A DNA stretch of 64,000 nucleotides, taken from Roseovarius pelagicus (GTDB lineage Bacteria; Pseudomonadota; Alphaproteobacteria; Rhodobacterales; Rhodobacteraceae). This document shows positions 34,803-47,900 of the stretch, one piece after another. The first letter of the stretch is position 1, and each line of letters begins with the position of its first letter. Where the stretch lies: the NCBI RefSeq assembly GCF_025639885.1, contig NZ_CP106738.1, forward strand, positions 3,658,001 through 3,722,000. Direction: 5' to 3'. The position numbers were made by a program, and so were the translations under genes. The notes beneath the pieces are model-generated. The model had not been told where the DNA came from. It saw nothing but the letters and a program-made list of their open reading frames with translations, and did no database searches.

Positions 34803-37800
34803 TCAATGGAAATCGCGGCTTGGAAATAGCCTTTTGGCTTGTTCGCGAGGATGTGTCGCCCGAGGAGGAGATTTTCGCGGGCGTGGTGTGTCGTCTGCTT
34901 GTGGAAGTGTTTCTCCGAGAACGTCGTCCCTTGGGTGCCCGAGGTCGGACAATTTGTGCGACATATCTTCGATCTGTTGCGCGATCAGATGTACTACACG
35001 GTCTTCGCGCTGCAAATATCCACTCACCTTCAAAAGCCGTCCGCCCATGACAATGCGGCGAAACTGTTTGTAGACCGTTCTCCAAACAACAATATTGGAC
35101 ACGCCAGTTTCATCTTCGAGGGTGAGGAAAATGACCCCCGAAGCTGTGCCGGGGCGTTGGCGGGTTATGACAAGACCGCAGACGCTGACGTGTCCGAGCG
35201 GGGCGGTTACAAGTTTATCATGTGGGGTGATCCCCGGAACTGCGGGGCGTAAAAGCTCCATTGGGTGGGCGCGTAAAGACAGACGTGTTGCGACATAGTC
35301 TTCGACAATTTCTTCACCTAATTGCATGGTCGGGAGTGTCACTTTCGGTTCGGTGATATGTTCTCCATCAATCGGATCATTAAACAGCGGTAGCGGCATT
35401 TGATTGCGAATGGCTTTGACCTGCCAAAGCGCTTCGCGGCGGGTCAGGCTGGCGTCGGTAAAGGCATCAGCCTCGGCCAAGCGTTCCATCACAGTCGGTT
35501 TTATGCCTGCGCGCAACCATAGGCTTTCAGGATCACTATACCCATTGCCGCGCGCTGCTACGATCCAGTTCGCATCCTCTTCTTTGAAACCTTTGATCTG
35601 CCGAAATCCAAGGCGTAATGCCAAAGCACCATCCGCGCGCCGCTCAAGAGTATTATCCCATGCGCTGTTGTTCATACAAATAGGCCGTATCTCGACCTGA
35701 TGTTCGCGGGCATCGCGCACCAACTGTGCCGGAGCGTAAAACCCCATCGGCTGGGAATTTAGTAAAGCGCAGGTGAAAATTGCAGGGTGGTGGCATTTCA
35801 GCCAAGACGACACATAGGTCAACATAGCAAAAGCAGCAGCGTGGCTTTCAGGGAAACCATAGTCGGCAAAACCTTCGATTTGACTGAAACATCGCTCGGC
35901 AATCTCTGGGCTATAGCCGTTCTTCAACATTCCTGCGGTGAACTTGTCGCGGAATTTTCCAATCGTTCCCATCCTACGGAACGAAGCGATAGACCGACGC
36001 AGATGGTCAGCTTCTTCGGGGGTGAAGCCCGCGCCAACAACAGAAATTTGCATTGCTTGCTCTTGGAACAGGGGTACACCCAGAGTGCGTTTCGTAACCT
36101 CTTCTAAGGCGGGGCCAAAGGGGTCTGGTTTTTCCAAACCTTGCCGTCGTCTGATATAGGGTTGCACCATGCCGCCCTGAATAGGGCCGGGACGTACGAT
36201 GGCGACTTCTATGACGAGATCATAGAATGTCTTAGGCTTCATGCGGGGTAAGAAATTCATCTGTGCCCGGCTTTCCACCTGAAACACACCAACCGCATCC
36301 GCAGCACAGAGCATATCATAGGTGGCGGTATTCTCTTGTGGGACTGTGTCAAGCGTGAAGCATTGTTTCTCGTGGGTCTGCAACAAATCAAACGCTTTGC
36401 GGATACAACTCAGCATCCCCAGACCCAAGATGTCGATCTTGAGGATACCCAGGGCATCAATGTCATCCTTATCCCACTCGATCACAGTACGATTTTCCAT
36501 GGCCGCGTTTTCAATGGGACAAAGTTCATCCAACCTGCTCTTGGTAATGACAAACCCGCCGACATGTTGGGACAAATGACGCGGAAATCCGATCAGTTCT
36601 CCGATCAAATGGATCGTTTGGACAAGACGTTTGTCATTCAGGTTTAGGCCAAGCTCTTTAATCCTTTCAGGATCAGCACCTTTGTTAGACTGACCCCAAA
36701 TCTGACCAGACAGGTTTGACGTAATATCGTCGCTGAGTCCCATCACCTTCCCAACTTCACGGATTGCCGCCCGAGATCGAAAATGAATAACGGTTGCACA
36801 AAGCCCGGCCCGTTCACGGCCGTATTTGTGGTAAATCCACTGGATGACCTCTTCGCGGCGTTCGTGTTCAAAATCGACATCGATATCTGGCGGCTCGCCT
36901 CGGTATTTCGAGATAAAACGTTCAAACACCATCGTAATCATATCCGGGCTGACATCGGTGATCCCTAACAGGTAGCAGATGATTGAGTTTGCCGCTGATC
37001 CCCGGCCTTGGCACAAAATGTCTTGGGATCGTGCGTATTGTACGATGTCGTGAACCGTCAGGAAGTAAGCGGAGAAGTCTAAATCAGCGATGAGCCTGAG
37101 TTCTTTGGCGAGAAGATCATGCACACGTTGCGATGCCCCATTGGGATAGCGGTGGTTCACGCCTTCCTTTGCCAAACGCTCCAACCGTTGTTGTGGTGGC
37201 TCTGCATCCGAAACTTCGTCAGGGTATTCATAAGACAACTCACTCAGGCAAAAACTGCATCTTGTCGCAATATCCTGTGTGCGTTGGATGGCGGCCGGAT
37301 GATGACGAAAGAGGCGCGCCATATCCGTGTACCCTTTGAGGCGACGTTCTGCATTTGGTAGGGCGCGCGTCCCGATTATGTCGATTGTGATATTCTCGCG
37401 CATGCAGGTCAGCACATCGGCTAATTGCCGACGATTGCCGCGGTGCATCAACACATCGCCCACAGCGACCATTGGTGTGCAACAGTGCTGTGCCAATGCT
37501 GCGCAATCATTCAGATAGGCTTGGTCTGATCCATCATAACGCGGTGCCGCTCCTAAAAACACATGCCCTGGAAAGCGCTGTTGTACATCCGCTATCACAC
37601 GGCGACAGCGATGAAGCGGGCCTTGAGGCAACGCGATAAAAATCATTCCACGCCCCCCATCTAACAGGTCTTTGACATCGAGATGGCATTGCCCTTTTTC
37701 AGCCCGCCGTTTCCCTAGAGTAAGTAATCGGGTCAGCCTTTGATACGCCGCACGATTCTGAGGCAAGACGATCCAATCAACAGGGCTGTCTCGCAACACC

Positions 37801-38117
37801 AACCGGCATCCCACAATGAGCTTTGGTAATGTTACAGTGGCAGGACGGAGGATGCGCTCGGGGTTGCCGTTCTCTTGGCGTGAACTGCTGTCTGTTCTGT
37901 GGCGCGATCTGACTTTGATATCCTTCTCCGCTTCGGCTTTAAGGGTTTTAAGAGCACTATAGGCCCGCACAACACCAGCCAGCGAATTTCGGTCTGTTAT
38001 CGCAACGGCTGATAATCCCAGCTCAGCGGCGCGGGTTACGATTTCTTCGGGATGTGACGCGCCGGTGAGAAACGTAAAGTTCGTTGTCACGCAAAGTTCG
38101 GCATAGCCCGCCATCAT
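34803..38117 (-). CDS. dnaE2: Error-prone DNA polymerase DnaE2
   Basis: About 1104 residues, a C-family polymerase of the DnaE2 (ImuC) type. The N-terminal PHP domain starts AELCVTTNFTFLTGASHPEE. The polymerase core has catalytic aspartates in PPDIDVDFEHER near residue 420, and the C-terminal OB-fold region (VSVCGLVITRQRPGTASG) is present. It performs mutagenic lesion bypass together with ImuB, which tethers it to the sliding clamp. I start at ATG 38117, overlapping the imuB stop (ATGA) after AGGGGG; the frame extending to 38204 lies inside imuB. It is the last gene of imuA-imuB-dnaE2. Confidence 0.95.
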   Translation of the reverse strand: MMAGYAELCVTTNFTFLTGASHPEEIVTRAAELGLSAVAITDRNSLAGVVRAYSALKTLKAEAEKDIKVRSRHRTDSSSRQENGNPERILRPATVTLPKLIVGCRLVLRDSPVDWIVLPQNRAAYQRLTRLLTLGKRRAEKGQCHLDVKDLLDGGRGMIFIALPQGPLHRCRRVIADVQQRFPGHVFLGAAPRYDGSDQAYLNDCAALAQHCCTPMVAVGDVLMHRGNRRQLADVLTCMRENITIDIIGTRALPNAERRLKGYTDMARLFRHHPAAIQRTQDIATRCSFCLSELSYEYPDEVSDAEPPQQRLERLAKEGVNHRYPNGASQRVHDLLAKELRLIADLDFSAYFLTVHDIVQYARSQDILCQGRGSAANSIICYLLGITDVSPDMITMVFERFISKYRGEPPDIDVDFEHERREEVIQWIYHKYGRERAGLCATVIHFRSRAAIREVGKVMGLSDDITSNLSGQIWGQSNKGADPERIKELGLNLNDKRLVQTIHLIGELIGFPRHLSQHVGGFVITKSRLDELCPIENAAMENRTVIEWDKDDIDALGILKIDILGLGMLSCIRKAFDLLQTHEKQCFTLDTVPQENTATYDMLCAADAVGVFQVESRAQMNFLPRMKPKTFYDLVIEVAIVRPGPIQGGMVQPYIRRRQGLEKPDPFGPALEEVTKRTLGVPLFQEQAMQISVVGAGFTPEEADHLRRSIASFRRMGTIGKFRDKFTAGMLKNGYSPEIAERCFSQIEGFADYGFPESHAAAFAMLTYVSSWLKCHHPAIFTCALLNSQPMGFYAPAQLVRDAREHQVEIRPICMNNSAWDNTLERRADGALALRLGFRQIKGFKEEDANWIVAARGNGYSDPESLWLRAGIKPTVMERLAEADAFTDASLTRREALWQVKAIRNQMPLPLFNDPIDGEHITEPKVTLPTMQLGEEIVEDYVATRLSLRAHPMELLRPAVPGITPHDKLVTAPLGHVSVCGLVITRQRPGTASGVIFLTLEDETGVSNIVVWRTVYKQFRRIVMGGRLLKVSGYLQREDRVVHLIAQQIEDMSHKLSDLGHPRDDVLGETLPQADDTPRPRKSPPRATHPREQAKRLFPSRDFH

Positions 38118-39592
38118 GCGAATTCCCCCTGTACGAACCAGCCTGGGTTTTGTGGTGTGTAGAAAAGCCAAAGCCTGCGACCTTCCTTGGTATCCACCTT
38201 CCAATAATCCCGTACACCCGACCGCCAGTTTTCATCTGACATCCACCATTCCGGCGCGATCCGTTCCGGCCCTGTTGCGCGCCCTGTCGTGAGTGACATG
38301 CGTCGCCAACGAAAATGAGTCGGCGGCGAGGCCCCATGACCGGAAACCTTTTCCGGCGGAAAAAGACAGAGGGGGCGAGGTCGGATGAGATGCCAAGCGT
38401 TGTCAGGATCCGAATATGCAGCCGGAGCAATAATAAAACTGCGTTCTGGGATGTGACTATCTGCTGGCAGAAACCTCTGAATATTCTCCAGCCCGATACG
38501 GATTCCGAGGCGTGTGATAAGGTCGTCTAAGCCGTCTTGATGTTTAGTGCTTGTCGCGTTCAGCTGTTGCGCAGGCAGAGGTTCAACCTGCGTTGCTTCC
38601 AGTCGTATTTGATCAATACCGAAAGCGGCCTCAATCTTACCGATACCGCGCTCAAACAGGGGTAATATTCTGCGGGCATCCCGCAAAGGCTGTGCCAATC
38701 GGAGTTCGACCTGTTGATATTCTCCGTCCACTCGGCGTAGCGATAGGCACAGCACACGGGCACCAGTCTCATTTGTTTTCAGGGAGACGCATAACCGATC
38801 TAGCAACCGCGCAGTGCCCGCCATGACATCATCCACTAGGCCGATTGGGTCAGGCAGCGTAAGGCGCACCCCGTAATGAGGCGGCACCTCAAGCGGAGAG
38901 ACCTGTTCGGGTTGCTGGCCTAAAGCCTGATCCAACCGCATCAACAGATCGGTTCCAAATCGTCGTGCCAAAGGCGCGCGGGCTGCTGATGCCAAATCAC
39001 CCACGGTCCGCAGGCCAAGCCGCTGCAATGCTTGATCCGTTTGAATATCCAGCCGTAATGCCGCGACTGGAAGCCTGCTGAGGGCATTTAGCGTGTCTTG
39101 TGGTGCCGCCGCGCCCTCTTTGAAATGGGCTAGCGCCCAGGCAGCGCCGCGTGTATCTGCGGCTCCAATTTTGGCAAACAGGCCTGCATGACGAAGGCGC
39201 TGGCGCATATCCGCCAACATGTCGGTTTCCCCCCCGAACAGATGCGCGGCCCCTGTAATGTCCAATATCAAACCATCATCTTGTTCGAGGCCAACCCAAG
39301 GGCAATACCGTGTGGCCCAGCGGCTTAGGCTGAGCAGGAAACGTTGAGAGGCATGAAGATCAACGGGTGCACTTATTAAATCCGAGCAATAGGCCTGCGC
39401 ATCGGAATAGGACATTCCCCGATGCAACCCTTGTTTTTCGGCGGCGGCGTTGAGGCAATGAAGACGGTTCGTATTCTTTTGGTGGATCGTGAGCGCAAAG
39501 GGCCCGCTGACAGGGCGCGCGCGTAGAACCCGATCACTTGCCAGTCTCGGAAACCATATTGATACGACGCGACGATGATGACCACCGAACAT
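38114..39592 (-). CDS. imuB: Y-family polymerase-like protein ImuB
   Basis: About 492 residues related to DinB-type polymerases, beginning RVVSIWFPRLASDRVLR. ImuB proteins lack the full catalytic acid set and act as the hub that binds DnaE2 and the beta clamp. The C-terminus carries a WWM-type segment followed by R-D-Y-W-K-V, resembling the conserved tail of this family. The proposed start at ATG 39592 overlaps the end of imuA by 59 nt; no better start was found. The frame reaching 39700 is within imuA. Confidence 0.88.
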   Translation of the reverse strand: MFGGHHRRVVSIWFPRLASDRVLRARPVSGPFALTIHQKNTNRLHCLNAAAEKQGLHRGMSYSDAQAYCSDLISAPVDLHASQRFLLSLSRWATRYCPWVGLEQDDGLILDITGAAHLFGGETDMLADMRQRLRHAGLFAKIGAADTRGAAWALAHFKEGAAAPQDTLNALSRLPVAALRLDIQTDQALQRLGLRTVGDLASAARAPLARRFGTDLLMRLDQALGQQPEQVSPLEVPPHYGVRLTLPDPIGLVDDVMAGTARLLDRLCVSLKTNETGARVLCLSLRRVDGEYQQVELRLAQPLRDARRILPLFERGIGKIEAAFGIDQIRLEATQVEPLPAQQLNATSTKHQDGLDDLITRLGIRIGLENIQRFLPADSHIPERSFIIAPAAYSDPDNAWHLIRPRPLCLFPPEKVSGHGASPPTHFRWRRMSLTTGRATGPERIAPEWWMSDENWRSGVRDYWKVDTKEGRRLWLFYTPQNPGWFVQGEFA

Positions 39593-40088
39593 TCCAGACA
39601 CCCAGTGTTCCTGATTTGTTCCTAATAAGTTCCCATCGTTGAAGAGTCGAGTCTTGGGGATCAAACACCGGGTAACAATGCCACCGTGTTTCGGCAGCAT
39701 TGCTGCCCATGCCCTCAGATATCAAGGCGATCCCCATTGCCTTTCCGGCCTGTGCAGCCAGTTGCAAACGACGACCTGCCGTCAGGTTAAGCGGCGTTCT
39801 CAGCTCCATGATAACAACAGAGATCGCGCCGGAGCGCAGCGCCTCTTCGGCGACAGCCAATGTCTCTACTTGTTCTTTTGTGGATGCGATTATGAGGTTC
39901 TCCGGATGAAGAACATCAATCACTCCGAGCGGATTCAATTGCTCTACACGCCAATGTTCTTTCACCCAAAATACCGTGCCTTGCGTTTTTGCGGCATACA
40001 TCGCAGCAAAGGACATCGCGCTTGGTCCGTACACCTCATGCACGCGATCAGGCTTAAGCGGGTAAATGTTATGTTTATCGTGCATCAT
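39534..40088 (-). CDS. imuA: ImuA, SOS mutagenesis accessory protein (RecA-like)
   Basis: About 184 residues with the alphaproteobacterial ImuA pattern: LKPDRVHEVYGPSAMSFAAMYA near the N-terminus, GTVFWVKEHW, and the C-terminal KSGTLGVWNVRW. It is a RecA/SulA-like partner of ImuB in damage-induced mutagenesis. Start ATG 40088 (or 40085); the frame extending to 40328 runs through non-conserved sequence. A GTTC-N7-GTTC LexA box, expected for this operon in alphaproteobacteria, was not found nearby. TTGATC and TATAAC-like hexamers occur upstream at about 40105-40125. Confidence 0.85.
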   Translation of the reverse strand: MMHDKHNIYPLKPDRVHEVYGPSAMSFAAMYAAKTQGTVFWVKEHWRVEQLNPLGVIDVLHPENLIIASTKEQVETLAVAEEALRSGAISVVIMELRTPLNLTAGRRLQLAAQAGKAMGIALISEGMGSNAAETRWHCYPVFDPQDSTLQRWELIRNKSGTLGVWNVRWSSSSRRINMVSETGK

Positions 40089-40727
40089 ATCGCTGAAACA
40101 GCATAAAGTTATATAAGAGATCAAGAGAAGAGGGGGCGTTGATGGGCCACGCAGCGGACGGCTTCTTTCCGCCCGTAGTGTCGAAGACTGAATGGTGCAC
40201 ATATGCCGTTTGGTCACTGGTTCAACCTGCCAGAGTGGCGTAACCGGCCAGTTTTGTAGAAATGCACCATGCAAAGTTTGAACCGTTCCTGCAACGATGA
40301 TGGCGAAATGCCAGCCAGCAGAGAACACTGGTCTGACGAAACCGTTGCAGAGGCCGCCCGTTCAAGGAAGCTCGTAGAACCGCGTGAGAGGCCTGCGATA
40401 GAGAAGAACCTCTCCAGCTTGTCCTGAAGCACCAGCGATGCGCGGCTCTACACGGGCCTCAAGCATGGTGGCCATGTTGATGTGTCCGATTGCAAAACCA
40501 TGAAAAAGCTTGGGCGATCCACGGCAGCAAGAACGGCAGATCGGGGGATCGCATTGGATTGCAGCTATAGTGATATTCCTGATCTTAATCGGGTGTTTCA
40601 CCCACGATACGAAAAGACGCGCGCAGAATGCAGGACCCGCAGTTCTGGCTGACATTCACGCCGTCAATGCCCAGAACCCGAGTGATGCTAAGACTGTGCA
40701 GAGATGATCGGCGCGCCGCTGCATTGG
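40089..40727. other. 0.64-kb region without a supported gene
   Basis: Short frames exist on both strands (for example 40362-40655 minus), but none shows a family I recognise, a ribosome site or a consistent codon pattern. It holds one copy of a 14-bp sequence, ATGCAAAGTTTGAA (40269-40282), that recurs at 41009-41022 just upstream of the haem-protein gene. It is probably decayed sequence plus the imuA promoter. Confidence 0.5.
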
Positions 40728-40961
40728 TCAGCGATCCTTCCAGTGGTTATTGGCCTGCGCAATTGTCTGGAAATGCACGGCGACGACTGATGATGCTGCA
40801 ATCAGAGCATTAGCGTCATGTTCGTAATCTGCGCGTATTTTTGCACGCACGTCGCCATCCGGCTGTGTCATCTTAACGGCGACACGAGAGAGCTTGACCG
40901 CCAACTCGTAGCCTTCTTGCGGCGTTTGCGTGACCAGCGTGGGTAACCAAGTCTCTGACAT
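40728..40961 (-). CDS. Hexameric tyrosine-coordinated haem protein (HTHP)
   Basis: A 77-residue protein that matches, from memory and nearly residue for residue, the haem protein crystallised from Silicibacter pomeroyi: start SETWLPTLVT, then AVKLSR, DANALIA and a W-K-D end. That protein forms a ring of six small helical subunits, each holding a haem through a tyrosine. The ligand corresponds here to Y46 counting Met, Y45 after Met removal, in R-A-D-Y-E. Weak peroxidase and catalase activities have been reported for it. GGAAGGAAA precedes ATG 40961. It lies downstream of a histidine-rich exported protein on the same strand, with a large inverted repeat between them. Confidence 0.88.
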   Translation of the reverse strand: MSETWLPTLVTQTPQEGYELAVKLSRVAVKMTQPDGDVRAKIRADYEHDANALIAASSVVAVHFQTIAQANNHWKDR

Positions 40962-41040
40962 GGGGATTTCCTTCCTGTAGGGGGGCGTGCTGTAATTCCG
41001 AGAATTAGATGCAAAGTTTGAAGCGCATGATACTGTCTTC

Positions 41041-41083
41041 GCTGTTTCGTGAAAAGCTGCACAGCAGAGTTTCACGAAACAGC
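41041..41083. promoter_or_regulatory. 14-bp inverted repeat between the His-rich gene and the haem-protein gene
   Basis: GCTGTTTCGTGAAA (41041-41054) and TTTCACGAAACAGC (41070-41083) are exact complements with a 15-nt spacer. Each arm also contains a smaller palindrome of the form TTTC-NN-GAAA. There is no U run on either side. It could be a transcript hairpin separating two genes of one operon, or a double operator in front of the haem-protein gene. Confidence 0.6.
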
Positions 41084-41105
41084 TATGGGGCCGCGTTTCA
41101 AGACG

Positions 41106-41852
41106 TCAATCGACCCGACCAGGCAGAGACAGATCGCCGGATGCGACGTCAAACACATCGGTAACACAAGCCAGAGGCGCGTGGAGATCAGCATTGACAC
41201 GCAGGGCGGCAGTCACGCCATCATAGGACGCGGTGTCGATCTGTTCTGCGTCTGCCGCCGCCAGAACGACGTTGATGGAAATCTGAGGTCCATCGAATGT
41301 CGGCGTGTAACCGGGGCTGTCCAGAAACATGGGAACGCCGGGCCAGGTGGCGGGCATTTTTGGTGTTTCGCCCTCTGGGATGTCACGTACGGCCAGCGTG
41401 CCTGGCCCGCAATCGTGGTTTTCCACCAGAACGACCCAATGACTGTGCCAGTGGGCACCATCGTTGCCGGTGTCGCCGTCAATGTTCTCGTCATAAAGAG
41501 GCGTGTCGTCAAAATCAGGGTGGTTGGTGGCCGCAAGCGCGAGAATGCCGGTGTCACCTTCAAAACCGACGGTCGCTGGATCGAGTGTTGTTGGCCAAAC
41601 ATACGCCCAGATCGACGAGCCGGCAAAGTCTCCGGTTGCTTCGGGTGTTGCCGTTCCAGCCGCGCCATTTGCCGTCATGTGAAAGGTGATTACCCGTCCT
41701 TCGCGATGGACATGCGCCTTGAGAATGTCAAAGGCAGCAACGGTTTGTGTATTCTCGTCCGAGATCACTGCCCCCGCGTGGCTGTGGGTGCCATCGGCGA
41801 GTGCGAAGGTTCCTGCACAGCAGGCAGCGCCGATCATCAAATATTTCATCAT
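41106..41852 (-). CDS. Histidine-rich exported protein of unknown function
   Basis: About 248 residues with a signal peptide (residues 1-19, cleavage near ALA before DGTHSHAG). The mature protein is rich in histidine and acidic residues: THSHAG, AHVHREG, and a dense HWHSHWVVLVENHDCG segment that could bind a metal. I do not recognise a named family. ATG 41852 follows AGGAGA by 7 nt; the frame reaching 42023 reads back across the promoter region. It is divergent from a MarR-type gene and upstream of the tyrosine-haem protein, suggesting joint control and perhaps a role in periplasmic metal, haem or peroxide handling (inference). Confidence 0.75.
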   Translation of the reverse strand: MMKYLMIGAACCAGTFALADGTHSHAGAVISDENTQTVAAFDILKAHVHREGRVITFHMTANGAAGTATPEATGDFAGSSIWAYVWPTTLDPATVGFEGDTGILALAATNHPDFDDTPLYDENIDGDTGNDGAHWHSHWVVLVENHDCGPGTLAVRDIPEGETPKMPATWPGVPMFLDSPGYTPTFDGPQISINVVLAAADAEQIDTASYDGVTAALRVNADLHAPLACVTDVFDVASGDLSLPGRVD

Positions 41853-41883
41853 TTTTCCATCTCCTGTTGAAATCATGCGGTGA

Positions 41884-41912
41884 TTAATAGTAGCGAGTCG
41901 ATAATATTGCAA
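41884..41912 (-). promoter_or_regulatory. Candidate promoter of the His-rich gene, sharing its -35 with marR
   Basis: On the minus strand TTGCAA (41912-41907) is followed by exactly 17 nt and TATTAA (41889-41884). The predicted start is about 25 nt before ATG 41852, leaving room for the AGGAGA ribosome site. TTGCAA is its own reverse complement, so the same six bases serve the plus-strand promoter. Confidence 0.6.
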
Positions 41913-41931
41913 TAAAAATATCGACTCGCTA
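41891..41931. promoter_or_regulatory. 13-bp inverted repeat, candidate MarR operator
   Basis: TAGCGAGTCGATA (41891-41903) and TATCGACTCGCTA (41919-41931) are exact complements separated by 15 nt. One arm lies in the -35/-10 spacer of each divergent promoter, and the midpoint coincides with the shared -35 box. A dimer on each arm, or one bridging both, would silence both genes together. Confidence 0.7.
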
Positions 41932-41935
41932 TAAT
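41907..41935 (+). promoter_or_regulatory. Candidate marR promoter giving a leaderless transcript
   Basis: TTGCAA (41907-41912), a 17-nt spacer and a consensus TATAAT (41930-41935). Transcription would start near 41941-41943, at the ATG itself, so the message would have no leader. The GAGGG touching the ATG is too close to act as a ribosome site. Confidence 0.6.
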
Positions 41936-41940
41936 GAGGG

Positions 41941-42483
41941 ATGGGAAAAACAGACCAGATACGTGCCTTGATCACCCGGCTAGGGCGACTGGATGCGGCG
42001 GACGGTTGGGGGGACGACCTCAATCCGGCGCAGCGCAGCGCGTTGGACTATCTGTCGCGGGCGAATGAGCTGTCGCGTTCGCCGTCTCATGTGGCAGAGT
42101 ATCTGGGAACGACCCGTGGAACGGCTTCCCAGACGCTGAAGGCATTACTGCGCAAAGGTTTTGTGACTGAAATACGATCAGAAAGCGATCGACGGTCGAT
42201 CCAATATGATGTGGCCGAAGCAGGGCATACCGCCCTCTTAACCAAGTCTCGCCTGTTGCTGGCACTTAGCGAAATGCCAGATAGTGAACTTAGCGAAGTA
42301 CATTCAATCTTGGCGAAAACCTTGGAAGTGGCGGCTGACAGGAATGGGTTCCGACCGTTCGGAATATGTCAGACATGCCGCTATTTTGCACCAAGGCAGG
42401 GCGGTGGCCATTGCAAGCTGCTGAACATCGCGCTTGCAGCATCGGAAACAAAGAAGATCTGCCACGAACATTCCGTAGAGTGA
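41941..42483 (+). CDS. MarR-family regulator with a C-terminal four-cysteine motif
   Basis: A 180-residue protein. Residues 25-110 form a MarR-type winged helix (LNPAQRSALDYL, SPSHVAEYLGTTRGTASQTLKALLRKGFV, and the wing S-E-S-D-R-R-S). The C-terminal 40 residues carry C143, C146, C158 and C174 (C-x2-C-x11-C-x15-C), a pattern suited to zinc, an iron-sulfur cluster or haem-linked redox sensing and unusual for classic MarR proteins. It is divergent from the histidine-rich/haem-protein genes with overlapping promoters and a strong dyad, so it probably represses both directions. The signal is unknown. Confidence 0.85.
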   Translation: MGKTDQIRALITRLGRLDAADGWGDDLNPAQRSALDYLSRANELSRSPSHVAEYLGTTRGTASQTLKALLRKGFVTEIRSESDRRSIQYDVAEAGHTALLTKSRLLLALSEMPDSELSEVHSILAKTLEVAADRNGFRPFGICQTCRYFAPRQGGGHCKLLNIALAASETKKICHEHSVE

Positions 42484-42574
42484 TGGGCCGGAGTGGGGCT
42501 GGGCCCACTTGAGGGCGTCACGCACTTGTTCGTTCCGCACTTGCGTAGGGACAATCGTTGTTACAGCCGATGCA

Positions 42575-43807
42575 TCACGCGCTCAGCGCGTCGCGGATCG
42601 CAGTGACAGCGGCAAGCATGTCGACGGTGAAGCTTTCAATCAGGTAATCCGGCCAACTGGACAGTTTTACCGCCATGAAATCTGTTTCAGGATCGAGATA
42701 GATCAGTTGGCCAAAGACACCCCGGGCCATGAAGTCGCGCCGTTTGGCATCGTGTATCCACCACTGACGGCTATAGGCGCCATTCGGCGATGCAATGGTG
42801 TATGGTGCGCCAAACACGTCAGGGTCGCCCGTGCGGCTGTCTTCGACCCATGTTTCGGGGACAACCTGCACATCGCCAACACGGCCACCACTCAGCATCA
42901 TCAGACCAAAGCGCGCGTAGTCGCGCAGCGTTGCATTGAACCCACCATCAGCGAGCGCAGTACCTGCGCTGTCGACGGTAAAGAATCCGTCACGTTCGCA
43001 TCCCAGCCGCGACCAGATGCGCTCTGACAGCAAGGTGGCGAGAGATTGTCCGCTGACACGTTCCAACACCCAAGCCAGCAAGTCAGTCTCGATCGAGCGG
43101 TACTTGAACGCCTCGCCGTGGTCGCGTTCTTGCGGCAAAGTCAGTATCACGTCGCGGATCGTTGGCACGATCTCACCATAGGCAGGCGGACGCCAGCCGC
43201 TGGCAATGTCTATCTGCGTCATGTCAGATCCGGCCATGCCGTAGTCTTCGGTAAAGCGCACACCAGAGCGCATGTCGAGCACTTGGTTCAGCGTTGCCGT
43301 CGCGTATCCACATTGCGCAAGTTCAGGCACGATATCGGCCAGTGGGGCGTCCAGATCAACTTTGCCTTCGCCGTGCAGCACACCTACCAAAGCGCCGACG
43401 ATGGATTTGCCCACGGATTGCGAGAGATGCGGGGTCTGGCGACGCATGTCGTTGAAGTAGCTTTCAGTTATCACATGGCCTCGGTGCATGATCAGAAAAC
43501 CGTCAGTATAGCTGCTGGTCAACCAGTCGCGGACCGATTTTGTGCTGCCGTCCTGGGCAGTAAACGTAATGGTATCCAGGTCCTGTAGATCGCTGTGGAA
43601 CGGGCGCACCGGTGCTGTTCCGCGCCAGACATCGGCCGTCGGAAAGAGGCTGCGCATGTTCTGAAATGACCAGCGGTTAAACGGGGCCAAGTCCCAGTTT
43701 TCCAGCGTGGGGCGTTTTTCCGGAGGCGGGGGGAAACCACGCATGATGCCCAGATCGCGCGCGCTGCGCGGGTTTTGCTGCGTCCGTGCGAGGGCGGGGG
43801 GGGGCAT
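42575..43807 (-). CDS. Serine hydrolase of the class C beta-lactamase fold
   Basis: A 410-residue enzyme of the beta-lactamase/DD-peptidase-like family. The nucleophile motif S-x-x-K is SVGK (about residue 130) within LSQSVGKSIVGALVG. A Y-x-S motif follows at KYRSIE, placed like the catalytic tyrosine. No signal peptide is evident, so it is probably cytoplasmic, similar to 6-aminohexanoate-dimer hydrolases and esterases. AAGGA lies 8-9 nt before ATG 43807; M22 (43744) is an alternative. It is 81 nt downstream of the polyamine-type binding-protein gene, so it may hydrolyse an amide or ester brought in by that transporter. Confidence 0.82.
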   Translation of the reverse strand: MPPPALARTQQNPRSARDLGIMRGFPPPPEKRPTLENWDLAPFNRWSFQNMRSLFPTADVWRGTAPVRPFHSDLQDLDTITFTAQDGSTKSVRDWLTSSYTDGFLIMHRGHVITESYFNDMRRQTPHLSQSVGKSIVGALVGVLHGEGKVDLDAPLADIVPELAQCGYATATLNQVLDMRSGVRFTEDYGMAGSDMTQIDIASGWRPPAYGEIVPTIRDVILTLPQERDHGEAFKYRSIETDLLAWVLERVSGQSLATLLSERIWSRLGCERDGFFTVDSAGTALADGGFNATLRDYARFGLMMLSGGRVGDVQVVPETWVEDSRTGDPDVFGAPYTIASPNGAYSRQWWIHDAKRRDFMARGVFGQLIYLDPETDFMAVKLSSWPDYLIESFTVDMLAAVTAIRDALSA

Positions 43808-43888: not shown

Positions 43889-44920
43889 TTACTGCTTCAG
43901 CTTGGTCCAGATCTTGTTGTACATGTCCGTCACTTCCTGCGAGCAGGGTTTGACGAAATCGGGCGTAGGTGCATCCGCAGGCATGACAATCTCAGGCGCG
44001 CTCAGCATTTCTTCGTCCATGAACTCTTCGCTGCCTTTGATGCCGTTGGCATAGCGGGCAAAGTTCGAAATCAGCGCGGCGTTTTCAGGCGCCATGATGA
44101 AGTTCACGAAGAGTTTCGCGTTGTCCATGTTGGGTGCGTCCTTGAGCACGGCAACGTTGTCCATCCAGCCGGTAAAGCCTTCGACCGGATAGGCGTATTG
44201 CAGCGTTGGACGCTGGGCACGGGCACGCATCGCGGCCCCGTTCCAGTTCTGGCTGAGATCGACGTCGTTCGATGTCAGTTTCTCGATGGTGGAATAATCC
44301 ATAGTGCGCCAGTGCTGCTTGGCATTGATCAACAGTTCGGTCACATCACGCAGCTCATCAGTGTTAGAGTTGCAGCGATCATAGCCCTTGTAGCGCAGAC
44401 CGGCGTTGATCACGTCATGCATGTCGTTCAGCATGTTGATCCGGCCTTTTAGCTCTTCTGGTGGTTCAAACATCAGAGCCAGCGTATTGATATCGCCGCC
44501 AAATACCTCGGTATCGACCGTGAAAGAGGTCGTGCCCCATTGCCATGGCACCGAGTAGCTCCGGCCCGGATCCCACCAGACATCAACCCATTTCGGGTCC
44601 ATGTTGCCAAAGTTTTCCATCTCGTTCGGTTTGATTTCGGCCAGCATTCCCTGTTCGATCATGATCTTCACAGTTGAATCGCCGGGAACAACGATGTCAT
44701 AGCCGGTGTTGCCCTCACGGACTTTGGCCAGCATCGTTTCGTTCGAATCGTAGCCGTCCAGATTGACTTCTACATCGTACTTTTCTTCGAACTTCTCGAT
44801 CAGTTCTGGGTTGGTATAGTTGCCCCAGTTATAGATGTTCAGCTCGCCTTCGGCGAGAGCCGGCGTTGCGAGCATGAAGCTCGCCGCGACCAGCGCGGGT
44901 ATGGAACGTTTGAGTGTCAT
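43889..44920 (-). CDS. Polyamine-type ABC substrate-binding protein (PotD/PotF family)
   Basis: A 343-residue periplasmic binding protein with a signal peptide (about residues 1-23, cleavage after ALA before EGELNIYNWG). The PotD pattern is clear: LNIYNWGNYTNPELIEKFEE, YDIVVPGDSTV near 80, and WMDNVAVLKDAPN near 254. I start at ATG 44920, which has AGGAGG 8 nt upstream; the longer frame to 45310 lies in the permease gene. The ligand may be a polyamine or another amine or amide. Confidence 0.9.
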   Translation of the reverse strand: MTLKRSIPALVAASFMLATPALAEGELNIYNWGNYTNPELIEKFEEKYDVEVNLDGYDSNETMLAKVREGNTGYDIVVPGDSTVKIMIEQGMLAEIKPNEMENFGNMDPKWVDVWWDPGRSYSVPWQWGTTSFTVDTEVFGGDINTLALMFEPPEELKGRINMLNDMHDVINAGLRYKGYDRCNSNTDELRDVTELLINAKQHWRTMDYSTIEKLTSNDVDLSQNWNGAAMRARAQRPTLQYAYPVEGFTGWMDNVAVLKDAPNMDNAKLFVNFIMAPENAALISNFARYANGIKGSEEFMDEEMLSAPEIVMPADAPTPDFVKPCSQEVTDMYNKIWTKLKQ

Positions 44921-44952
44921 TGACTTACCTCCTGTTGATTGTCGTCTGGTTA

Positions 44953-45765
44953 TTATTTCTTTTTGTTGCCGAGTAGGAAGAACGCGGAAACCAGCACGAT
45001 CGACAGCAGCAAGAGCAGTGTCGATACGGCGTTGATCTCGGGCGTGATGCCACGGCGGATCTGGCCGAGGATATAGACCGGCAGCGTCGTTTCGCCGGGG
45101 CCTGCAACCATCAGCGTGATGATCACGTCGTCCAGCGATACGACAAAAGCCAGCATGCCGCCCGCCACGATACCGGGGGCTAAGAGCGGCAGAGTCACTT
45201 TGCGGAATACCTGAATGGGCGTGGCATAAAGGTCTGCGGCGGCCTGCTCCAGCGTCAGGTTCATATCCTCCAGCCGCGCCCGGATGGGCATATATGCGAA
45301 CGGGATGCAAAAAACGGTGTGCGCCAGCATCAGATAGCCGATTCCGGTCACGCCGGTCAGTTGCTTGATAATCGAAAAGAACGACAGTGTGGCGACCGCG
45401 GTTACGATTTCCGGGATCATCAATGGCTGGTTGATGATCGCATATGCCGCCATCTGTCCCTTGAAGGGAGGCGTGCGGGTGGTGGCAAGAGCCGCCATCG
45501 TGGCAAATGTCGTGGCGAACAACGTCGAAACCGCCGCCACCTGAAGCGACACCACGGTGGCGTTGCGGATGCCTTCGTTATCAAACGCTGCCGCGTACCA
45601 GCGCAGGCTGAATTCAGTCCACCGTACCACGGATCGGTTGTCATTGAACGAAAACACGATCAGCACAACGATGGGTGCGTACAGGAAAAAAATGCAGAAC
45701 CAGGCGAGGAAATCGAAACCCGGTTGCTTGCGCAGATCCTTCATTTTGCGAGCGCGTTCAGCCAT
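44953..45765 (-). CDS. Polyamine-type ABC permease (PotC family)
   Basis: A 270-residue permease with about six membrane spans and the family EAA loop (MNLTLEQAAADLYATPIQVFRKVTLPLL pattern near residue 170). The N-terminal span FFLYAPIVVLIVFSFNDNRS is typical of PotC. It overlaps the PotB-type gene by 8 nt and precedes the binding-protein gene by 32 nt. Confidence 0.9.
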   Translation of the reverse strand: MAERARKMKDLRKQPGFDFLAWFCIFFLYAPIVVLIVFSFNDNRSVVRWTEFSLRWYAAAFDNEGIRNATVVSLQVAAVSTLFATTFATMAALATTRTPPFKGQMAAYAIINQPLMIPEIVTAVATLSFFSIIKQLTGVTGIGYLMLAHTVFCIPFAYMPIRARLEDMNLTLEQAAADLYATPIQVFRKVTLPLLAPGIVAGGMLAFVVSLDDVIITLMVAGPGETTLPVYILGQIRRGITPEINAVSTLLLLLSIVLVSAFFLLGNKKK

Positions 45766-46708
45766 GACCTTTGGCCTCCTTGCCAGCGTAGCGGACGTAG
45801 ATGATCAGCGACAGCATCACCACCACCATCAGGATCAGGGCGGCCGCAGACCCAAAGGGCCAGTTGCGCGATCCGCCAAACTGTAGCGCGATCAGATTGC
45901 CGATCATCAACTCCTTGCCACCGCCCAGCAACTCGGGGGTGATGTAGGCACCAAGGCCGGGAATGAAGACGAGGATGCAGCCCGCAACGATGCCGGGTTT
46001 GGCCATCGGAACAATCACATGACGCAACACCTGAAAACGTGTGGCGTATAGGTCGTAAGCGGCCTCGACCAACCGGAAATCGAGCTTTTCCAGCGATGCA
46101 TAGAGCGGCAGCACCATGAAGGGCAGATAGCTGTAGATCAGGCCGAGGAATACCGCGAGATCGGTATAGAGGATCGTCAGCGGCTGGTCGATCAGGCCAA
46201 TGCTCTGAAGGCTGAGGTTGATGATACCCTCGTCCCGGATGATCAGCAGAACAGCATAGGTGCGGATCAGCAGGTTTGTCCAAAAGGGCAGTGTGATCAG
46301 GAACAGCCAGAAATTGCGCTGTGATGGCGGTTTGCTGGCGATGAAATACGCGGTCGGAAATCCGATTAGCAATGCCCCGACAGTGGCTACGAAGGCCAGT
46401 CCGATGGAACGGCCATAGATACTGAGATAAGTGGAAGAGAAACTGAGCGTATCATCAAAGATGTCACGTTCGAACAGGAACTGCACATAGGCGTTAGTGG
46501 AAAATTCCCACGTTACCCCGCCATATACGCCCGGGCTGAGAAACGAATAGATCAACGTGATTGTGAGTGGGAATAATCCGAACACACCGATTACAATCAA
46601 CGTTGGCGACAGCAACTGCCGGCGACGGCGGCGCGTATCGGCATCAACCCGACGTTTGGCATCTTCAAGCCGCGTGTCGGCGCCCATATTTTGTGCGGCG
46701 TCGGTCAA
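45758..46708 (-). CDS. Polyamine-type ABC permease (PotB family)
   Basis: A 316-residue permease. It contains the PotB pattern [24 protein letters not shown] near residue 150 and the EAA loop [26 protein letters not shown] near 210. The first 30 residues are charged and cytoplasmic. It overlaps the ATPase gene by 4 nt and the PotC-type gene by 8 nt. Confidence 0.9.
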
Positions 46709-47811
46709 TCTACCAGCACCTGTACCCGGTCAGGCAGTATCAGCCCGACTTCGTGCCCATCGGACCGTACCTCGCCTGATGTGCGCACGATGACTTCTGC
46801 TCCGCCTTTCAACGCGACATGCACGTTGCTGCCCGCACCGAAATAAACGACGTTTGTCACGGTGCCGGTTAGTTTGGCAGCCTTGTCCCCGGCATCGGTC
46901 AGCAGCATGTTCTCGGGGCGGATCGCGACAGATACGGTGCCCGCAGCCACGTCCGGCTCCGGCAGATCAGCGGGCAGGGTGGCACCGCCAGGTAATGTGA
47001 CGCGCCCCGCTAGTCCATCGACCTGATCAAGTGTCACTTCGAAGATGTTGATATCACCGATAAAGTCCGCGACGAACCTGCGCGCGGGCTGATTATAGAT
47101 TTCTTTTGGACGGCCGACCTGAAGGATGTGACCCGCCTTCATAACCGCGATGCGGTCTGACATGGTCAGCGCCTCTTCTTGGTCGTGGGTGACAAAGACG
47201 AACGTGATCCCGGTTTCGCTTTGGAGACGCTTCAATTCGATCTGCATTTCTTTGCGCAGCTTCAGGTCAAGCGCGGATAGCGGCTCATCCAGCAACAGCA
47301 CCTTGGGGCGCGGGGCCAACGCGCGGGCGAGGGCCACACGTTGCTGCTGTCCGCCAGACAACTGATCGGTTTGCCGGTTGGCTAGATGCTCCATCTGCAC
47401 CAGCCCCAGCATTTCCTCGGTGGCTTGTTTGATCTCGGATTTCGAGCGGCCCTGCATCTCCAGACCAAAGCCGATGTTGCGCGCGACGGTCATGTGGGGA
47501 AACAGTGCGTAGTTCTGAAATACGGTGTTCACCGGACGTTTGTAGGGGGGCAGGTGGCCGATCTCTTGACCATCAAGCAGGATATTGCCTCGTGTCGGCA
47601 GGTCGAACCCGGCGATCAGACGCAAGAGAGTCGTCTTACCGCAGCCGGAGGGCCCCAGCAGCGTAAAGAATTCATTCTCGCGAATGTTGACCGATACATC
47701 GTCTAGTGCGTGCACCTTCGTGTCACCCTGACCAAATGTCTTGGTAACGTTCTCGGCCAGAATCATATTCGCAACCGATTTCTTCGACATGTCTGCCGTG
47801 TCTCGCGCCAT
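46705..47811 (-). CDS. Polyamine-type ABC transporter ATPase (PotA family)
   Basis: About 368 residues. Walker [12 protein letters not shown] lies near residue 48, signature [15 protein letters not shown] near 148, Walker [12 protein letters not shown] just after, and a C-terminal TOBE domain ([12 protein letters not shown] near 305). I chose ATG 47811 because GGGGG lies 6 nt upstream; 47838 and 47817 are also in frame. It is first in the transporter operon. The palindrome TACCCC-ATC-GGGGATA lies about 90-105 nt upstream and may be the LuxR site. Confidence 0.88.
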
Positions 47812-47900
47812 GCGCATCCCCCAGTTAGCGTGTAGCATGCCGGTCTCGTGCCGGGCTTTGCTGGTAGTTCAGCCTAAGCGGCGGCGGCGCTCTGCGTAAA

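Follow-up and report, generated by a model that had tools for sequence, protein, structure and literature searches.

A conserved MarR/PER gene pair with a tyrosine-haem protein in Roseovarius pelagicus: possible core of a stress module against reactive nitrogen and oxygen species

The hexameric tyrosine-coordinated haem protein (HTHP) was first described in 2007, to judge from a reference title in PMC4813847. That paper reports an intrinsic peroxidatic activity of low specific value (3 U/mg) and a haem site for which one tyrosine and one arginine are named without residue numbers. By their titles, the open-access papers listed for this protein deal mostly with electrochemistry, imprinting and assembly, along with reviews and one Flavobacterium genome report; no description of HTHP physiology, or of the gene cluster considered here, was found among the open-access papers listed. 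We analysed this cluster in a 64,000-nucleotide stretch of the Roseovarius pelagicus genome (the window), of which positions 40728-42483 comprise three genes: those of HTHP and of an exported, histidine-rich protein, both on the minus strand, and a divergent gene on the plus strand for a MarR-family regulator with a four-cysteine (Cys4) tail. The name PER was coined in this analysis for the exported protein. Comparison with relatives indicates that the Cys4-MarR and PER genes form a conserved, mostly divergent pair with HTHP, redoxin and MOSC as recurrent partners. We propose, with a probability of about 40%, that the trio lies at the centre of a stress module under local autoregulation, directed against reactive nitrogen and oxygen species and acting by the mechanism set out below.

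The HTHP of known structure (2oyy), that of Ruegeria pomeroyi DSS-3, is encoded on megaplasmid NC_006569.1 inside a cluster of the same MOSC-MarR/PER-HTHP-redoxin type, and the window protein is 76% identical to it (76.3% by tblastn against the DSS-3 gene). Leftward in DSS-3 run MOSC (SPO_RS20685) and MarR (SPO_RS20690), and rightward PER (SPO_RS20695), HTHP (20700), redoxin (20705), a further MOSC (20710), a PDR/VanB oxidoreductase (20715) and DUF3088 (20720); a cbb3-type oxidase subunit is encoded about 7 kb beyond the cluster. The redoxin, the two MOSC genes, the PDR/VanB reductase and DUF3088 distinguish this cluster from the window trio, beside which none of them is found. Much nearer to the window is the locus of Pseudohalocynthiibacter aestuariivivens RR4-35, with 100% identity for PER and 99% for both MarR and HTHP.

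The regulator resembles the MarR thiol sensors OhrR, SarZ/MgrA and AbfR in its winged-helix core, its divergent gene, its palindromic gap and a possible cysteine-based sensing. It differs from them in that its cysteines are confined to a C-terminal C-x2-C-x11-C-x15-C arrangement, and no Ohr/OsmC partner is seen beside it. OhrR peroxide sensors carry their reactive cysteine near the N-terminus; the window MarR has no cysteine before C143 and hence lacks an OhrR-type N-terminal reactive cysteine. Neither of the window partners flanking marR matches OsmC in Pfam, and the recurrent neighbours in the relatives are MOSC, redoxin and HTHP, with some neighbours unnamed. Another set of described systems, the NsrR-linked nitric oxide (NO) genes (NnrS, YtfE/RIC, Hmp, globins, cbb3), is often met near HTHP genes of the order without an adjacent PER, and near one PER cluster too; unlike these loci, the window cluster has MarR instead of Rrf2. 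As for the MOSC partner, MOSC-family proteins are reported to reduce N-oxygenated compounds (PMC3831636, PMC5372681), and YiiM to reduce 6-N-hydroxylaminopurine (PMC3831636). The MOSC neighbour of the relatives shares the MOSC and YiiM_3-alpha domains with YiiM and scores 172 against the 6-hydroxyaminopurine reductase model, below its cut-off of 294; this gene is absent beside the window trio.

Linkage was surveyed in 292 genomes of the order (Rhodobacterales), searched for HTHP, for the Cys-MarR profile (E <= 1e-20) and for PER; adjacency counts in this survey, as in the NnrS, DUF6522 and second-set comparisons below, were read from coordinates by eye. HTHP was found in 34 genomes, Cys-MarR in 48 (51 places) and PER in 27 (29 places). 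Except at one place, in genome G128, PER stood beside a divergent Cys-MarR (28 of the 29 places), separated from it by no more than about 165 bp. Of the 30 MarR matches at E <= 1e-50, 28 were PER-linked, the 21 weaker matches being unlinked to PER. HTHP directly followed PER in six genera (genomes G000, G038, G119, G127, G219 and G282) and occurred somewhere in 12 of the 27 genomes with PER versus 22 of the 265 without it. The copies of G119 appear decayed.

A closer set consisted of the best 80 of 579 confirmed PER relatives in genome contigs, which are close kin by construction. A divergent MarR lay beside PER in 77 of these named loci (71 under an earlier, stricter gene picking), HTHP was present in 19, redoxin in 32, MOSC in 41, and HTHP together with redoxin in 14. 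The Cys4 motif was carried by 76 of the 77 PER-adjacent MarRs, the exception (L206) having an altered tail. The common gene order was MOSC <- MarR / PER -> (HTHP ->) redoxin, where the redoxin matches AhpC-TSA/Redoxin in Pfam and has a CPGC motif plus a cysteine tail. The sequence-only reading had taken the three genes for one linked system. Run in other genomes, the linkage check bore this out for PER and MarR, adjacent and divergent at 28/29 places and 77/80 named loci; HTHP proved to be a real but optional member (6/29 places, 19/80 loci), and the trio was incomplete as a whole system, since the wider module also has redoxin (32/80) and MOSC (41/80). Some PER loci carry extra genes for GST, a PatB-type C-S lyase, SoxC, cytochrome c, DUF3088, PadR or ArsR. 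The PER-adjacent GST ends in a vicinal CC in L091, L093, L094, L100 and L101, as do some PatB-type C-S lyases; the ArsR/PadR regulators of the GST/PatB loci are cysteine-rich, and the arrangement resembles a separate sulfur or soft-metal cassette.

In a sample of 398 genomes from across the phylum, 15 genomes carried PER, at 18 places in total, and the window's own family accounted for four of these places; 14 of the 18 fetched stretches included a MarR, and 13 of those 14 MarRs had the Cys4 motif. Eight plasmid stretches with PER were also examined among 87 matching records. Taken over these sets, a Cys4-MarR lies next to or near PER, sometimes not divergently, in Hymenobacter and Spirosoma (Bacteroidota), Deinococcus, Vibrio, Sinorhizobium, Phaeobacter and DSS-3; at the Lelliottia PER locus the annotated MarR is short and the last two cysteines are missing. 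The Hymenobacter plasmid reads hmpA, Rrf2, hypothetical, catalase, PER, HTHP, protoglobin, DUF2024, hypothetical, MarR, MOSC, and here the PER-cluster context and the NO-gene context of HTHP meet.

The 88-bp gap between marR and PER contains two near-palindromes of the form TATCGA-S-TCGATA, with centres 28 bp apart, on either side of a TTGCAA hexamer (Table 1). A spacing of 17 bp separates this hexamer both from TATAAT on the marR side and from TATTAA on the opposite, PER side, so that, by comparison of relatives, it appears able to act as -35 for both promoters. In the PER hexamer TATTAA the T is kept in 46 and the A in 48 of the 48 aligned promoters, although the promoter scan did not report it; the scan listed TTGCAA-17-TATAAT for marR. 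As the scan as a whole was near chance (2 found vs 1.1 in shuffles), we based the promoter assignment on the conservation of the hexamers across relatives. The marR ATG at 41941 is 6 bp beyond the end of the predicted -10, and the marR mRNA may be leaderless.

Site pairs spaced by 24-34 bp (at most 3 mismatches per site) were present in 50 of the 77 named gaps, and in 48 of these gaps the spacing was exactly 28 bp. In the other 27 the PER-side site was often further from TTGCAA, as judged by eye, and L148 and L197 were without a clear second site. At 2 mismatches or fewer, at least two sites were found in 73/77 gaps versus 1/1571 control windows from the same loci. Across the whole genome of the window organism exact sites numbered only 2, both in the MarR-PER gap, and one-mismatch places 3, the reversed control pattern giving 30. 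The finding of only two exact sites makes the regulator look local, and its own divergent promoter carries a predicted palindromic operator. A broad MarR regulon in this genome was considered and found unsupported, there being only the three extra one-mismatch sites.

Table 1. Features of the Roseovarius pelagicus locus and its surroundings, in window coordinates.
Feature	Position	Strand	Remarks
HTHP	40728..40961	-	77 amino acids; homologue of hexameric tyrosine-coordinated haem protein
Hairpin	41041..41083	-	In PER-HTHP gap; perfect 14-bp stem, arms at 41041 and 41070; no T-run
PER	41106..41852	-	248 amino acids; exported (signal judged by eye), His-rich; family unnamed
WHSHW motif of PER, residues 135-139	41436..41450	-	W135, H136, H138 and W139 identical in 207/207 rows
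Predicted -10 of PER promoter, TATTAA	41884..41889	-	17 bp from the common -35
Predicted operator 1, TAGCGAGTCGATA	41891..41903		In PER promoter spacer; exact match to TAKCGASTCGMTA; conserved among relatives
Predicted -35 for both promoters, TTGCAA	41907..41912		Self-palindromic; at least 47/48 at every base
Predicted operator 2, TATCGACTCGCTA	41919..41931		In marR spacer, touches marR -10; exact match to TAKCGASTCGMTA
Predicted -10 of marR, TATAAT	41930..41935	+	Promoter scan, 10/12 matches
MarR-family regulator with four-cysteine tail	41941..42483	+	180 amino acids; PF12802 and PF01047 above cut-off
Cys4 tail, residues 141-180	42361..42480	+	C143-x2-C146-x11-C158-x15-C174-x-E; 120-sequence alignment
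ImuA-ImuB-DnaE2 SOS mutasome-like cassette	34803..40328	-	Directly downstream of HTHP
Genes resembling polyamine-type ABC transporter and periplasmic binding protein	43889..47838	-	Judged by eye

The sequence-only reading had recognized a tyrosine-haem protein, a co-directional exported histidine-rich protein of no known family and a divergent, four-cysteine MarR, and all three identifications held. The HTHP matches PF11534 at 127.2 bits (Pfam cut-off 25), residues 4-75 covering profile positions 1-72, and its residues 1-76 align with the solved chain 2oyy_A (E 6.5e-34). In an alignment of 72 rows the tyrosine at 2oyy position 46 is conserved in 71, and Arg 26, Arg 39 and Arg 43 in 70, 64 and 71, respectively; this conservation points to Tyr46 as the probable haem ligand. 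Loci L111/L196 hold decaying copies in which the HTHP tyrosine is substituted and the redoxin is split. On the conjugative E. coli plasmid pRHB36-C07_3 (L264), an HTHP gene (58% identical, annotated as peroxidase) adjoins the gene of an HbpS-like haem protein.

PER begins with a stretch that resembles a signal peptide by eye, belongs to no Pfam family and gave only a chance-level match in NCBIfam; CBM9-like haem-b domains (NXR gamma subunit 7b04_O and the cellobiose dehydrogenase cytochrome 1pl3) are named among the nearest known systems. It has at least 5545 homologues at E <= 1e-3 among 8000 scored. Across a 207-row alignment H111, H136 and H138 are identical in every row, H224 is kept in 206, and C148 and C229 in 205; the loop 121-131 is rich in Asp/Asn. 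Together with H111, the WHSHW motif would make a candidate metal site. A further decaying copy (genome G133, L082) has PER interrupted by two stops.

The MarR core scores 50 bits against PF12802 and is likewise above the cut-off of PF01047, and its predicted structure (pLDDT 90.4) shows the winged-helix MarR fold. The protein has no cysteines besides C143, C146, C158 and C174, and all four are unchanged throughout an alignment of 120 sequences. The fold matches cover mostly residues 1-138; 3nqo, 9fa0, 9ff4 and 2fxa reach 170-174, with the tail barely covered, and of the 42 solved sequences found with the profile none matches beyond profile position 140.

In the mechanism that we propose, a MarR dimer on each palindrome, within the -35/-10 spacers, would shut both promoters, and the Cys4 tail would carry a metal or Fe-S centre. 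NO and its products, or peroxide, would damage this centre, causing MarR to leave the DNA. HTHP would then process NO or peroxide at its tyrosine-bound haem and PER would work in the periplasm via its conserved three-His site; where present, redoxin would repair thiols and MOSC would reduce N-oxygenated compounds. The joint redox action that had been suggested from the sequence agrees with the partner genes as regards a redox or reactive-species role; the cysteine tail may be a sensor and PER may bind a ligand, and the inducer and the chemistry of PER are inferences. NO is the preferred trigger because the HTHP relatives of the order sit with NO genes, because of the chemistry of the MOSC family and because of hmpA in the Bacteroidota cluster. 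A wider version, tentative and somewhat doubtful, would be a stress system of at least three phyla in which a MarR with a Cys4 metal or Fe-S centre senses NO chemistry, and in which twin operators with one shared -35 control PER, as a new family of periplasmic metalloproteins, and an HTHP whose physiological task is to handle NO or peroxide.

The NO context of HTHP was assessed with a set of markers (NsrR-like Rrf2, bacterial globin, NnrS, NnrU, RIC-like and cbb3) around those 28 HTHP genes in the order that have no adjacent PER, in stretches of which some were shortened by contig ends. At least one marker was found within 5.5 kb at 16 of these 28 loci, and DUF6522 at 13. In the 34 HTHP genomes, 5 of 51 NnrS places were within 6 kb of HTHP, versus about 0.15 expected from the length covered. 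The window HTHP has no NO/NsrR marker within 5.5 kb, the NnrS gene of the genome being about 97 kb away. A second set, the 41 named PER genomes (some of which overlap the order survey), held HTHP at 25 places in 24 genomes; 9 of the 25 were beside PER, with a marker in 0/9, and the other 16 had a marker in 7 within a 3.2-kb stretch. A third, phylum-wide set had HTHP in 9/398 genomes and gave 7 new stretches, among them a full redoxin-HTHP-PER-MarR cluster (L261). HTHP was also met on 27 plasmid records, and of 14 examined, a non-random choice, 7 show cbb3, Rrf2 with globin or ytfE, NnrS/DnrN, nirK or hmpA; individual records carry ytfE, NnrS/DnrN/haemoglobin, nirK, or cbb3 with Rrf2. The small family DUF6522 adjoins HTHP at 13 of its 28 places and is near NnrS at a few others; it may be an HTHP partner (loci L118-L145; plasmid loci L293, L295 and L296).

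Several results weigh against the stress module that we favour and against NO as its trigger. The markers were picked after the loci had been inspected. No marker lay within 5.5 kb of any of the six PER-linked HTHP loci of the order, and an NO/cbb3 marker lay within that distance at only 1 of its 29 PER loci, so that what ties this branch to NO is the kinship of its HTHP, the MOSC partner and a single Bacteroidota plasmid. Among the six phylum-wide HTHP loci of the third set without PER, none had a marker in its 3.2-kb stretch, and 6 of the 14 plasmid stretches are without such NO/cbb3 genes, the remaining one being the DSS-3 PER cluster. PER-linked HTHPs, moreover, fall mostly in a separate, weakly supported cluster and may serve another job. 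On the second HTHP tree, from which the long row L145 was removed and which is rough given an alignment of 78 columns, the PER-linked label changes 7 times versus 20.3 in shuffles, with 0/500 as low. The PER-linked rows thus cluster without forming a single clean clade: 21 of the 24 belong to a group of 25 with weak support (90/65), in which 2oyy, the window and three unlinked rows are found as well; the first tree (48 rows) gave 3 changes versus 15.7. Sulfur genes are present at some PER loci, and neither redoxin nor MOSC was found beside the window trio, the rest of the genome not having been searched. Finally, co-transcription of PER and HTHP in the window is less certain given their 144-bp gap and its hairpin.

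Among the 19 loci with HTHP, this gap measures 34-79 bp in 17; L156 has 151 bp, and the 144 bp of the window recurs in P. aestuariivivens. The window gap folds at -40.2 kcal/mol (z -2.86), and its hairpin may uncouple the expression of PER and HTHP. As a terminator the hairpin was rejected, for it has no T-run and is not in the list of terminator-like structures; Rfam gave no match at gathering score in 40000-43000.

Given the peroxidatic activity of HTHP, the main rival to NO as the trigger is peroxide. A response to peroxide or organic peroxide without nitrogen species, with HTHP as haem peroxidase, redoxin as peroxiredoxin or thiol partner and Cys4-MarR as thiol peroxide sensor, seems to us rather doubtful. 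The activity reported in PMC4813847 agrees with it in kind, but is low, at 3 U/mg. The match of the redoxin to AhpC-TSA/Redoxin and the catalase beside PER-HTHP in Hymenobacter are what such a response would lead one to expect, whereas a peroxide role for MOSC is not obvious. Elsewhere in the order, HTHP is often found among NO genes, which argues against peroxide alone, as does the lack in this MarR of a sensing cysteine at the N-terminal position of OhrR. A module that detects and removes sulfite, persulfide or thiol-reactive compounds would explain why SoxC (above the NCBIfam cut-off), a PatB-type C-S lyase (just below it), GST and DUF3088 come after PER at some Ruegeria-type loci, why the redoxin has CPGC and a cysteine tail, and why GST and PatB end in CC. 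We consider it unlikely, as the loci concerned are few (GST 7/80, PATB 6/80) and have their own ArsR or PadR regulators, and around the HTHP-containing clusters only DUF3088 among these genes appears (L211 and, likewise, DSS-3).

The invariant H111, H136 and H138 and the Asp/Asn-rich loop of PER, with the four invariant cysteines of MarR, could also be read as metal homeostasis, PER being a periplasmic Cu/Zn binder and MarR a Cys4 metalloregulator; but among gene clusters present in at least 4/80 loci no metal transporter was evident by eye, most other neighbours being unnamed, and we regard this explanation as quite improbable. It is very unlikely that HTHP is a passenger which landed in the PER operon and is functionally separate from it. 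Its presence in only 19/80 loci, its position beside PER at only 9 of 25 places in the 41 whole PER genomes (24 with HTHP) and its occurrence on 27 plasmid records would suit a passenger. Yet it keeps its slot after PER, followed by redoxin in 14/19 loci across several families, its PER-linked label clusters on the tree (7 changes vs 20.3 shuffled, 0/500), and the PER-HTHP adjacency recurs in Hymenobacter.

Of the neighbouring genes listed in Table 1, the mutasome-like cassette was assigned from the Pfam IMS match of ImuB, from ImuA/SulA-like NCBIfam matches below cut-off and, for DnaE2, by eye.

In summary, the place of HTHP in a conserved MarR operon, along with the frequent NO neighbourhood of its relatives in the order, makes its role directly testable in R. 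pomeroyi DSS-3. Neither Pfam nor NCBIfam has a name for the large PER family. The Cys4 tail, for its part, may be a sensor, and sequence search finds no solved relative of it. If the wider, NO-sensing version of the module is true, HTHP would have a regulon for the first time, and its MarR would be a sensor of a new type.

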